Shown here: positions 13,359-15,894 of the stretch, in pieces
Layout of the letters: each line of letters begins with the position of its first letter
How positions within the stretch are numbered: the stretch's first letter is position 1
From: Anaerolinea thermophila
Lineage (GTDB): Bacteria; Chloroflexota; Anaerolineae; Anaerolineales; Anaerolineaceae
Reading direction: 5' to 3'
Assembly: GCF_020723905.1 (NCBI RefSeq)
Contig: NZ_DYHZ01000002.1
Coordinates: 310,001 to 374,000 of the forward strand
DNA length: 64,000 nucleotides
Program-made: the position numbers and the translations under genes
The notes under the pieces: model-generated
What the model was told of the DNA's origin: nothing
Database searches by the model: none
Seen by the model: the letters and a program-made list of their open reading frames with translations, nothing else

Positions 13359-14615
13359 TTACCCCTGTTCGTTTTCTGGTGCGGATTGTCCTTCCGGGAT
13401 AATAATAGAAGGTGTACCGCTGTGGGCGCGGAATTTGAACCACGCTGGCAATATGGTCAGAAAAGAGATGACCGTGGTAAGCATAAACGGCGCGCGCGGG
13501 CTGAACTTTTCATACAGGTAGGCTCCAATGGATGGGGCAGGCAGGGAGAACACCCCCAGACTGGAGTGCAGCAGTCCAAAGCCGGTGCCGCGCAGACGTT
13601 CCGGCAGGGCTTTGCTCATTAGCGAACTGTATGCCGGGCTCATCATGCCAATGCCTACTCCCGCCAGCGTCCACGAGAGCAAAAACATCGGGAAGGTGTG
13701 GGCGTTGAGGAAGATGACCATGGAGATCCCTTCAATTAGAAACCCTGAACTGATGGCGACATGTTCGCCTTTACGGTCTGCCAGCCAGCCGCCTGCCAGG
13801 TTGGTTGCCATGATCGCGCCGCTCAGAGCGGCGCTCAGCCAGCCAATCTGTTGAATGGTCAGTCCACCCACCGATTTGAGGTAAACGGGGAAGAAAGTGA
13901 ACGACATGCGGAAGAAGATATCGCGCACCCCGTCTGTGAGGAACAGCCACGTCAGCAATCCACCGCTGACCAGCAAGATCAGCAGACTGCGCAGGTTGAC
14001 GCGTAAACTGTCCAGCGTTAACGGGCTGGCTGGCGCCGGGTTTTGTCGGCGGGCATTGCGTGCCATGCGAACCCGGATGATGGTAGCGCTCAGGTAGAGG
14101 ATTCCCGCCACAAACAGCATGGGCTTGAATCCGCGGATTTGCACCAGCCATGCTCCCAGCGGTGGACCGATGATGCCCACAACCGCGTAGAGCGTCTCGA
14201 CCACCCCAAACACACGGGCGCGGTTTTCCTCGCTGGACGATTCGGCAATGAATGCGCCGTAACTGGGGGCGACCAGCGCCGTTGTTACCGCGCCTAACCC
14301 CTGCGCCAGCAAAATCCATTCCCATGAGGGCGCCAGCACCAGTCCAACGTAGGAAAGCACTCCTGCCAGACTGCCCATGGCGATACTGCGCAGGCGCCCC
14401 AGACTATCGGAGATCCAACCACCCAGAATTTGCAGCGCCAGCGGGATGATGGCGGAAAGGGTGAAGAACAACCCCACCTGTGTGACGGTAGCGTTCAATT
14501 CCTGCAGGTACAGGGGCAGAAGATCCATGTACATGGATCCGGCGATATTCGCCAGAATCATGGCGATGAGAAACCAGATTAAGGTCTCATTCAGCAGCGG
14601 CTTTTTCGTGTTCAT
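13359..14615 (-). CDS. Major facilitator superfamily transporter
   Basis: 418 residues with about 12 hydrophobic helices. The MFS loop 2-3 motif appears as GGWISDSLGRLRSIAMG, and a second copy lies after helix 8 (GGWLADRKGEHV), the duplicated-half architecture of the family. Such DHA-type proteins usually export drugs or metabolites by proton antiport; the substrate cannot be read. The start codon lies 29 nt inside the 3' end of the acetyltransferase gene, so the two are translated together. The pair sits behind a leader containing a small ORF and a terminator. Export of a compound that the acetyltransferase modifies is an inference. Confidence 0.88.
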   Translation of the reverse strand: MNTKKPLLNETLIWFLIAMILANIAGSMYMDLLPLYLQELNATVTQVGLFFTLSAIIPLALQILGGWISDSLGRLRSIAMGSLAGVLSYVGLVLAPSWEWILLAQGLGAVTTALVAPSYGAFIAESSSEENRARVFGVVETLYAVVGIIGPPLGAWLVQIRGFKPMLFVAGILYLSATIIRVRMARNARRQNPAPASPLTLDSLRVNLRSLLILLVSGGLLTWLFLTDGVRDIFFRMSFTFFPVYLKSVGGLTIQQIGWLSAALSGAIMATNLAGGWLADRKGEHVAISSGFLIEGISMVIFLNAHTFPMFLLSWTLAGVGIGMMSPAYSSLMSKALPERLRGTGFGLLHSSLGVFSLPAPSIGAYLYEKFSPRAPFMLTTVISFLTILPAWFKFRAHSGTPSIIIPEGQSAPENEQG

Positions 14616-15630
14616 GACCTTCGATGGTTTGCGTCAGATAATCTTTGCCGGGGCGCATCTCGTATTCAAAGAGATGATACTCTCGATGGACGTGCATCCC
14701 GGCACGTTGATAAAGACGGGTAGCACCGGTCAGGTTGGAAGCATCCACTCCAAGCCCGATACGGTAAAACCCGCGCTGATACAGCGCATGGAATCCGTGT
14801 AACAGCAGCGCCAGCCCCAGTCCATGCTTGCGCCACTCACGGCGCACACCCAGCAGGTTGATCCAGCCCAGTTGCGGGTCTTCTTCAGTGCCGGTTGAGC
14901 ACAGGCAGTACCCGGCAATTTCCCCGCCGTTCATGGCAACAAACCACAGAGCCGGGTCAACGTGCGGGTCGGTTTCAATCCAGTGCCGCCAGTCCTTGAG
15001 CGCTTCCTCCATGGGGGTTTCCACGTATCCCCAGTGGTCTTTAAAGGTCTGTTTATGGGCGTGAATGAGTGCTTCAAGGTCCTGTTCCAGATTCACCGGA
15101 CGCACCTGAATGCCCTCCGGGAAGATGGCAGGCTGTGGAGGAGTGTTGAACTCGATGCGCATCTGGTAACTGTTGCGGATGTGCCGAAAACCAGACCTTT
15201 CCAGCAATTGCGCGCCGTCAACTGCCTGCGAGGGCAGGTACTGATGCACAACCACGCGCGCCTCAGCGGGGGCGCTTTCCAGCGCAAGAGCAGCCCGCGC
15301 CAGCCCCCACTGGATGAGGGCTGTGCCCAGCCCTTTGCCCTTCCATTCGGGGTGCACCCTGCCATACAGATACAGGCGCACATGCGGGGGCGAGTCGTAC
15401 ATCTCCCCATAGGCTACCACCTGCTGATCCTCATCGAGAATCAGCAGGGTGTCCCGTTCCAGGTTCATCATGGGGTTTGTCCAGAAACTGAGGATGTCTT
15501 GCGCGCTGGTTTCAGGAGCGCCGACCCATTCCATCGAACACCGGTTTAACAAACTGGCTACCGCTTCAGCGTCGGCAAGAGTTGCCGGTCGGGAAGTGAA
15601 GGCAGGGGGTAGAGAGAAATTCGGTTTCAT
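14587..15630 (-). CDS. Two-domain GNAT-family N-acetyltransferase
   Basis: 347 residues containing two GNAT folds, about 5-150 and 165-325. Each has an acetyl-CoA pyrophosphate loop: HPEWKGKGLGTAL in the first and RREWRKHGLGLAL in the second. Tandem GNATs of this size include mycothiol synthase (MshD)-like proteins and antibiotic acetyltransferases; sequence does not choose between them. The start at 15630 has GGAGAA 8 nt upstream; the longer in-frame version begins inside the leader terminator and is rejected. The last 29 nt overlap the MFS gene. No convincing independent promoter lies in the 46 nt between the leader terminator and the ATG, so expression probably depends on read-through. Confidence 0.85.
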   Translation of the reverse strand: MKPNFSLPPAFTSRPATLADAEAVASLLNRCSMEWVGAPETSAQDILSFWTNPMMNLERDTLLILDEDQQVVAYGEMYDSPPHVRLYLYGRVHPEWKGKGLGTALIQWGLARAALALESAPAEARVVVHQYLPSQAVDGAQLLERSGFRHIRNSYQMRIEFNTPPQPAIFPEGIQVRPVNLEQDLEALIHAHKQTFKDHWGYVETPMEEALKDWRHWIETDPHVDPALWFVAMNGGEIAGYCLCSTGTEEDPQLGWINLLGVRREWRKHGLGLALLLHGFHALYQRGFYRIGLGVDASNLTGATRLYQRAGMHVHREYHLFEYEMRPGKDYLTQTIEGHEHEKAAAE

Positions 15631-15676
15631 GACAGTTCTCCATATCAAAAACTTTTTAACGGTTCGCCCGGTGGGG

Positions 15677-15721
15677 AAAATAAAACCAGCCACGGGGCGG
15701 GGAGCATGTCCGTGGCTGGTT
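15677..15721 (-). terminator. Strong leader terminator upstream of the acetyltransferase-MFS operon
   Basis: On the minus strand a perfect 12-bp stem (15721-15710 with 15695-15684) with a 14-nt loop is followed by TTTTATTTT. It lies after the 30-codon small ORF and 46 nt before the acetyltransferase ATG, which is the position of an attenuator. Confidence 0.88.
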
Positions 15722-15741
15722 CATCAGCAATTTTGTGTAGA

Positions 15742-15834
15742 TTACCTGCCTGTAGACACACTCCGAGAAGGAATCAGCGCACCACTCGCTTCGGTACGGA
15801 GACGAACAGCAACCTGGATGACAGAATAGACCAT
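15742..15834 (-). CDS. Candidate 30-residue leader peptide
   Basis: A 30-codon ORF beginning MVYSVIQVAVRLRT, preceded at 8 nt by AAGGAAG and sitting about 25 nt after the predicted start of a transcript from a near-consensus promoter (15866-15894). A strong terminator starts 20 nt after its stop. The peptide contains Arg-Leu-Arg at residues 11-13, a +X(+) pattern like that in macrolide-responsive stalling peptides such as ErmDL. It has no recognisable domain. It may act by ribosome stalling to control read-through into the acetyltransferase and exporter; alternatively it could be a free-standing small protein gene or a non-coding leader. Translation is not proven. Confidence 0.55.
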   Translation of the reverse strand: MVYSVIQVAVRLRTEASGALIPSRSVSTGR

Positions 15835-15865
15835 GCGTTTTGCTTCCTTTCTCAGAGTTAATCTC

Positions 15866-15894
15866 ATTTTAATGTAAGCCCGGAAATTGGTCAA
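15866..15894 (-). promoter_or_regulatory. Sigma-70-type promoter of the leader ORF
   Basis: Minus-strand TTGACC (15889-15894) and TAAAAT (15866-15871) are spaced by exactly 17 nt. The same two hexamers with the same spacing precede tRNA-Gly at 59155. In the rest of the 15631-15979 gap I see only the leader ORF, its terminator and the opposing -10 box at 15968. Confidence 0.8.

Follow-up and report, generated by a model that had tools for sequence, protein, structure and literature searches.

Organization of the leader and its operon

The window, the whole 64,000-nt stretch of Anaerolinea thermophila DNA that was analysed, carries on its minus strand a leader spanning positions 15894–15677, followed by two genes that we identified with Pfam and NCBIfam models. 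The first encodes a double-GNAT acetyltransferase of 347 aa (14587..15630) and the second an MFS exporter (13359..14615), and the two genes overlap by 29 nt. We took the ATG at 15630 as the start of the GNAT gene; a longer GTG start at 15693, present in the ORF list, would overlap the terminator. The double GNAT scores 67.6 bits against the NCBIfam model of mycothiol synthase MshD, below its cut-off of 163.1. We infer a resistance function for the GNAT–MFS pair.

The leader begins with a sigma-70-like promoter, TTGACC-17-TAAAAT (15866..15894). Three promoter-like sites occur within 5 kb compared with 2.6 expected, and the window promoter taken alone is thus within chance. Among the related leaders described below, the pattern TTGACN-N16..18-TANNNT is found 220 to 50 nt 5' of a conserved block in 118 of 130 cases, counting the window, whereas dinucleotide shuffles give a mean of 1. 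A separate gene promoter, on whose absence an earlier note on this DNA had staked its reading, was not found: the 46 nt from the T tract to the GNAT ATG are without a promoter match in our scan of the window, and the family pattern occurs between the terminator region and the first downstream ORF in 0 of 128 leaders.

The leader ORF (uORF), MVYSVIQVAVRLRTEASGALIPSRSVSTGR, has 30 codons and a stop (15742..15834) and is preceded by the Shine–Dalgarno (SD) sequence AAAGGAA (15844..15850; score 6). Its codons 11–13 (15796..15804) read Arg-Leu-Arg, a candidate drug-dependent stall site. The conserved block CCTTCTCGGAGTGTGTC (15755..15771), recognized from the family alignment, contains the switch strand GGAGTGTGTC (15755..15764), termed region 2, which starts 40 nt after the start of the Arg-Leu-Arg codons. 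Region 3, GACATGCTCC (15701..15710), was assigned by pairing tests as the antiterminator partner of region 2. Region 1, ACTCTGAGAA (15849..15858), runs into the SD and, according to duplex and fold calculations, is predicted to form an anti-antiterminator with TTCTCGGAGT (15769–15760).

The intrinsic terminator (15677..15721) consists of a perfect 12-bp stem (15721–15710/15695–15684) with a 14-nt loop, followed by TTATTTT. It is absent from the hairpin-scan list because the scan allows loops only up to 8 nt. Across the family, all seven core pairs of the terminator are formed, each in 38 of 38 aligned leaders. The elements that the earlier note had read from the letters (promoter, ORF with its own ribosome site, Arg-Leu-Arg at residues 11–13, terminator, promoter-free gap and overlapping gene pair) are therefore all present.

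A family of leaders in the Anaerolineae

Searches for DNA similarity to the whole leader in 101 genomes returned matches mostly at chance level, and a few weak matches upstream of GNAT homologues led to the leader family. The homologues themselves, searched independently of the leader matches, occur at E ≤ 1e-20 in 78 of 151 genomes. Common to the weak-match leaders are CCTTCTCGGAGTGYGYC and a terminator. When 301 genomes of the order were searched by pattern, 13 places turned up, distributed over 12 genomes; four of these places (L039, L044, L047 and L051) are chance matches outside leaders and were discarded.

An exact 20-nt scan for CTTCTCGGAGTGCGCCTRTT over 84,980 species yielded 38 stretches, including some from the cultured relatives Bellilinea caldifistulae GOMI-1, Ornatilinea apprima P3M-1 and Thermanaerothrix daxensis GNS-1, and all lie in Chloroflexota records, as judged by titles that give Chloroflexi, Anaerolineae or Chloroflexota genera and families. 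In all 38, a hairpin and a T-rich tail come after the block. With a covariance model built from 38 aligned leaders, matches at E ≤ 0.01 were obtained in at least 188 of 396 genomes of class Anaerolineae and in 126 of 222 genera, with up to five per genome; the genome count is a lower bound because only ten candidates per genome were scored. Very divergent leaders would be missed, since the model was built mostly from exact-match sequences. The matches that we inspected were the strongest only (weakest used E 4.9e-8), and the weaker ones among the 188 are putative.

In a phylum-wide sample of 400 genomes, 37 have a match at E ≤ 1e-4, of which 36 belong to class Anaerolineae. The sole out-of-class match covers model positions 65–100 only, which is the terminator, and was rejected. 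The window's own genome holds one convincing copy of the leader; the next-best site (L120; 19 bits, E 0.035) was discarded after inspection of its sequence. The leader family is thus seen here only in Chloroflexota, mainly in Anaerolineae.

For the comparisons below, 100 sources (the window, 19 of 30 laid-out loci and 80 further stretches) provided 100 model hits. Together with the exact-scan, DNA-similarity and GNAT-homologue leaders, these make 141 leaders, or 134 after removal of duplicates. Covariation was measured on the model hits because the exact-match set is biased to the invariant block.

The window leader has no Rfam match even at E ≤ 1, and six related loci are likewise without an Rfam match. 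We found no description of the family among the listed titles and abstracts of the open-licence literature searched with Chloroflexi or Anaerolineae terms or with the peptide strings. Term searches found Chloroflexi absent from the main text of two RNA-motif papers; a further one lists Chloroflexi motifs under other names. As far as the matched terms go, PMC4833913 names Chloroflexi solely as a group with few genomes and PMC3766115 uses "attenuator" for amino-acid types.

The leader ORF and its reading frames

An ATG with an SD score of at least 5 opens the usual reading frame over the block in 97 of the 134 leaders, compared with 1.15 in dinucleotide shuffles. When any frame and an SD score of at least 4 are allowed, the number rises to 116 of 134, compared with 18 in shuffles. 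Among the 100 model hits, 92 have a uORF (GTG allowed, SD score at least 4) that starts 37–82 nt before the block and mostly stops 20–29 nt after the start of the block; eight are without a uORF at this SD score.

The usual frame reads P[SC]RSAPVxR* in 115 of 123 leaders with an SD-preceded uORF, which answers the earlier note's call for conservation of the frame in relatives. RSAP is exact in 85 of these 115 usual-frame (frame B) uORFs; by position, R is kept in 101, S in 113, A in 106 and P in 106.

Four leaders in front of ABC-F genes (L004, L072, L078 and L089) read the block nucleotides in another frame, as SFSECAC* or SFSECVC*. The same SFSEC-type ending is found in L079 and L086, which have no gene within their sequence stretch. 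The usual frame is without a start codon over the block in L041/L079, L043/L072, L049/L089 and L004. Overall, it is used in 3 of 11 leaders before ABC-F genes compared with 117 of 122 others with a candidate ORF (Fisher p 1e-7; some of the starts, which were picked by score, have no good SD, and the leaders are not statistically independent). The frame swap is a natural test of RNA versus peptide: since the block is conserved across two reading frames, the RNA itself matters. The RSAP peptide may have an added role alongside the RNA.

The antiterminator helix

The earlier note had failed to find a clean antiterminator helix by eye, but one exists. It is formed by positions 15764–15755 and 15710–15701, so that region 2 near the end of the uORF pairs with region 3 in the terminator. 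This pairing is equalled by 1 of 1000 letter shuffles and differs from the family consensus at two pairs, where U-A replaces C-G. Family-wide, region 2 corresponds to the GGAGTGCGCC portion of the block, and region 3 comprises the end of the terminator 5' arm and the loop.

For the 100 model hits, the duplex of region 2 with its own region 3 has a mean energy of −17.4 kcal/mol, compared with −14.8 kcal/mol when partners are exchanged between leaders (0 of 20,000 permutations) and −9.3 kcal/mol with shuffled letters. The own-partner excess persists in 69 leaders with less than 70% identity and in 48 with less than 65% (0 of 5000 each); permutation within related sequences overstates certainty, which such thinning reduces but does not remove. 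Without gaps, at least 8 of 10 pairs form in 69 of 100 leaders and 6 or fewer in 6 of 100. Pair 2 of the helix occurs as G-C, U-A, C-G and A-U among those 69 leaders, that is, as all four Watson–Crick types.

The variable base of the block provides a further measure. GNAG is present in 85 leaders; region 3 contains a CTNC tetramer in 42 of these and lacks one in the other 43. In 34 of the 42 (34 of 85 overall), the base facing the variable base is its exact complement, compared with 13.5 by permutation (0 of 20,000). The antiterminator thus shares sequence with the terminator and overlaps the uORF. It may exclude the hairpin strictly, although less clearly so in the many leaders, among them the window, whose region 3 falls largely in the terminator loop than in those with region 3 in the 5' arm.

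The anti-antiterminator helix

GCGCAC or a close variant surrounds the uORF SD in 43 of 92 leaders, as in AGGAGGCGCACTTC-ATG, and can pair with region 2. The leaders' own 1:2 pairs reach −14.7, compared with −13.0 for exchanged ones (92 leaders, 0 of 5000); the corresponding count for a more upstream control region is 1482 of 5000. With a wider region 1, the values are −16.1 and −14.6 (115 leaders, 0 of 5000), and thinning to 64 and 44 leaders again gave 0 of 5000 each. The pairing is weak in some leaders (L139, L144 and L146).

The usual family form of this helix is absent from the window, where region −20..+3 of the uORF start gives only −5.7. In a shifted register, ACTCTGAGAA and the SD pair with TTCCTTCTCGGAGT at −23.5 kcal/mol (region −30..+3, a widening chosen after seeing the window fold), which is the third strongest value of 115 and was reached by 0 of 1000 letter shuffles. 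An anti-antiterminator is thus found at the family level.

Folding in the presence of ribosomes

We folded transcripts cut before the terminator 3' arm with ribosomes at different positions, using assumed footprint sizes. In 92 leaders, the mean number of 2:3 pairs is 5.9 in the free transcript and 9.5 with a ribosome on the start codon. It is 7.7 when the ribosome stands at codon 5 and 6.6 when it stands at codon 8; a ribosome on the block leaves 0.0 pairs and one on the stop codon 0.6. Occupation of the start codon also lowers the mean number of 1:2 pairs from 4.0 to 0.1. A ribosome held early therefore favours the antiterminator, and a finishing ribosome forbids it.

The window leader, for which the earlier note had proposed folding with and without a ribosome, follows this behaviour in part. 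Its cut transcript has 9.3 2:3 pairs when free, 9.3 with the start codon occupied and 0.0 with a ribosome on the stop codon. Since the start codon state equals the free state and 1:2 partly coexists with 2:3, folding of the window agrees with the finished-ribosome state and lends no support to the role of region 1.

These results bear on the possibility that the peptide ending RSAP causes arrest by itself, with RNA pairing as a mere by-product. The exact recurrence of RSAP would fit such a peptide, as would the variable block base, which is the third position of an Arg codon. Nevertheless, nearly the same nucleotides read SFSECAC or SFSECVC before ABC-F genes and the block covaries with region 3; moreover, a ribosome arrested on the block would allow 0.0 2:3 pairs and favour termination. 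We consider an arrest at RSAP quite improbable as the basis of this leader.

Arg-X-Arg sites at a fixed distance from the switch strand

R-x-R precedes the block in 15 of 123 uORFs, compared with 5.2 in shuffles (0 of 500). The narrower motif R-[LIVM]-R is found in 13 uORFs (1.8 in shuffles) and the broader [RK]-x-[RK] in 25 of 123 (12.1 in shuffles). Although they lie at peptide residues 5 to 14, 14 of the 15 R-x-R motifs begin 40 or 43 nt before region 2; 2000 shuffles gave at most 5 in any two adjacent offsets. The codons vary (CGC ATT CGC, CGA ATG CGA, CGG CTT CGC). After removal of similar peptides (89 left), 11 of 12 R-x-R motifs are at the fixed distance (0 of 2000), and their total number is reached by 2 of 2000. 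This positional rule for candidate R-x-R stall sites is testable in vitro.

The Arg-Leu-Arg of the window belongs to the fixed-distance set and has the Arg/Lys-X-Arg/Lys pattern of +X+ arrest leaders. The earlier note had pointed to it as the +X(+) pattern of macrolide-arrest peptides, a proposal that gains from the recurrence of R-x-R at one place. As a general trigger it does not hold for the family: 108 of 123 uORFs are without R-x-R, which therefore cannot be the only trigger.

In 14 of the 15 leaders, the leading edge assumed for a ribosome on R-x-R would lie 20–23 nt from region 2. On its own, such a ribosome hardly changes the fold (15 leaders; 2:3 pairs 8.0 compared with 7.7 free, 1:2 pairs 4.8 compared with 4.5). 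Adding a further ribosome at the start codon lowers the 1:2 pairs to 0.02 and raises the 2:3 pairs to 9.9.

Genes behind the leaders

Of the first ORFs downstream of 128 leaders, 117 match one of 16 representatives, compared with 3 of 190 control ORFs (58 from the window and 132 from upstream flanks). Without the loci that supplied the representatives, 105 of 116 first ORFs match. Six leaders have no downstream ORF within their sequence stretch. Representatives were classified with Pfam and NCBIfam and the other genes by blastp only; on this basis, the first ORFs are ABC exporters (50), GNAT kinds (29), ABC-2 ATPases or permeases (12), ABC-F proteins (11), an unnamed family (9), HAD-like proteins (5) and an MFS protein (1). 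The ABC-F protein of L072 passes the NCBI cut-off for ribosome-protection ABC-F proteins (470.6 compared with 380 bits), and that of L004, which is cut by the locus end, scores 277.5 bits, below this cut-off.

For the 11 unmatched first ORFs, Pfam identifies GNAT proteins in L140, L150, L168 and L194 and an MFS protein in L204. RIO-domain proteins are encoded by the first ORF after two leader copies (L166:3945-4892:- and L187:671-1720:+), with an MFS gene next in L166. The first ORF of L202 has no Pfam match, and the others are those of L094 (154-aa ORF, then RtcB), L130 and L205 (ABC ATPase next). An RtcB-type RNA ligase gene is located about 0.6 kb behind the leader copy in both L063 (L063:2374-3798:-) and L094 (L094:1-984:-), possibly an RNA-repair gene under a ribosome-stress switch.

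The unnamed family consists of first ORFs of 148–225 aa in nine leaders (L056:6230-6733:-, and L005, L059, L061, L068, L075, L076, L080 and L093) and GNAT, ABC-2 or MFS genes come next. Scans of two members gave no Pfam match, and for one of them no NCBIfam match either. In L056, L057 and L005, a second terminator-like hairpin comes shortly after the first. Its loop is without the region 3 letters, and region 2 would thus not open it.

Three GNAT genes in a row and then a double GNAT lie behind the leader in L126, L133, L134, L149, L170 and L195 (blastp classes), an order that suggests a set of related acetyltransferases under one control. A small 23S_rRNA_IVP gene (PF05635) is situated between two ABC exporter genes in L067 (L067:3489-3860:+) and L083 (L083:4915-5310:-), and also in L127 and L151; its identity comes from two scanned members.

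The downstream genes are also informative about whether the leader responds to an amino acid or a charged tRNA. The 1:2, 2:3 and 3:4 layout is that of trp-type attenuators, and runs of three equal residues are slightly over-represented in the uORFs (10 of 115 compared with 5.8 in shuffles, a number reached by 14 of 300). Yet three is the longest run, the repeated residue differs between leaders and is mostly Gly, so that the 115 uORFs have no single regulatory codon run, and most of the identified downstream genes encode exporters, ABC-F proteins and GNATs rather than biosynthetic enzymes. An amino-acid attenuator is thus very improbable.

Discussion

We interpret the leader as a ribosome-mediated transcription attenuator belonging to a family common across Anaerolineae, and place the probability of this reading at about 0.8. 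Its members probably activate drug-resistance genes in response to ribosomes slowed by antibiotics. Comparative sequence analysis shows the uORF, the terminator, both alternative helices, the gene association and the placement of R-x-R; translation, stalling, kinetic capture and the inducers are what we infer from these features. The layout of a ribosome-stalling attenuator, suggested by the earlier note, is thus strengthened by an antiterminator that covaries and by R-x-R motifs that recur at a fixed distance from the switch strand.

According to this model, the uORF would be translated while it is being transcribed. A ribosome that reaches the stop codon would cover region 2, the terminator (3:4) would form and transcription would end. 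If no ribosome is loaded, region 1 around the SD could pair with region 2, and the terminator would form again. A drug-held ribosome at or near the start codon would mask region 1 and leave region 2 free. Alternatively, one ribosome might be held at R-x-R, 40–43 nt before the block, while another on the SD masks region 1. Free region 2 would then capture region 3 before the 3' arm of the terminator is made, and the polymerase would enter the resistance or export genes.

When the complete terminator is folded to equilibrium, the hairpin wins in every ribosome state (means of 7.5–8.4 of 9 pairs; 9.0 in the window), and read-through must therefore be kinetic. The same result would suit a constitutive terminator, or a small RNA, combined with an ordinary small protein, the operon being read by leak-through. 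Such an arrangement would have no use for two alternative helices kept by compensation, and we regard it as highly improbable. Least probable of all is a ligand-binding riboswitch with an incidental leader ORF: the leader is conserved, with a terminator and covarying helices, but it finds no Rfam match, its alignments have no conserved core beyond the switch strands and the terminator, and an SD-preceded ATG opens over the block far more often than in shuffles.

The attenuator reading may be extended, tentatively and at somewhat less than even odds, to a class-wide cis-regulon for ribosome stress in Anaerolineae that relies on one conserved RNA switch. Here, a fixed switch strand would be combined with an interchangeable upstream coding sensor. 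R-x-R would have arisen repeatedly at one distance for tunnel-binding drugs, other segments would sense other drugs, and the ABC-F leaders would use another frame over the same strand.

What is unusual about the family is that one strongly conserved switch strand precedes several kinds of resistance operon across a class. So are the frame swap, the constant position of R-x-R and a region 1 that surrounds the SD. In the papers cited below, the drug-inducible attenuators of Firmicutes and Actinobacteria were characterized one gene at a time; here, a single family in nearly half of the sampled class genomes stands before exporters, ABC-F proteins and poorly characterised acetyltransferases. The leader can thereby serve as a sequence tag in the search for candidate resistance genes in a group that is known largely through metagenomes.

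Comparison with known attenuators

Judged by its published description, the closest system in target and logic appears to be bmrB–bmrCD of Bacillus subtilis. As described in the sections of PMC4191407 that we draw on, the bmrB leader is induced by lincomycin and requires translation of its ORF. A small, translated ORF and a terminator, together with predicted antiterminator and anti-antiterminator helices, precede a two-gene ABC multidrug exporter there. In the Anaerolineae family, too, ABC exporters are the most frequent first genes (50 of 128). The same sections describe one operon, with the terminator inside a 53-codon ORF. The Anaerolineae leaders differ in having the terminator after the ORF, a strongly conserved switch strand and several kinds of operon, a comparison made by description and not by sequence.

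The ABC-F attenuators lmrC (PMC8546547), tiaA and are5sc (PMC12421871) are similar in that they combine a uORF, a premature terminator and an alternative antiterminator. In contrast to the present family, they are actinobacterial, and the leader peptides of are5sc and tiaA have 3–9 residues; the parts of the two reports consulted (PMC8546547, PMC12421871) mention no conserved strand common to the three.

The Arg-X-Arg motif is shared with the +X+ macrolide and ketolide arrest of ermDL. In ErmDL, as described in the portion of PMC8298421 used here, RLR occupies residues 6–8, the ketolide-bound ribosome stops when Leu7 is in the P site and the Arg after it in the A site, and refolding of the mRNA favours expression of the methyltransferase. 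In the Anaerolineae leaders, by contrast, R-x-R starts anywhere from residue 5 to 14 and is fixed to the RNA switch in 14 of 15 cases, and a transcription terminator is present.

Trp-type attenuators, as summarized in the section consulted of PMC4191407, use alternative 1:2, 2:3 and 3:4 helices with the ribosome as the sensor. Unlike in these systems, region 1 of the present leaders surrounds the SD rather than sensing codons, and no run of sensing codons was found. On comparative grounds, the leader is thus best described as a new family of a known kind, the ribosome-mediated transcription attenuator.
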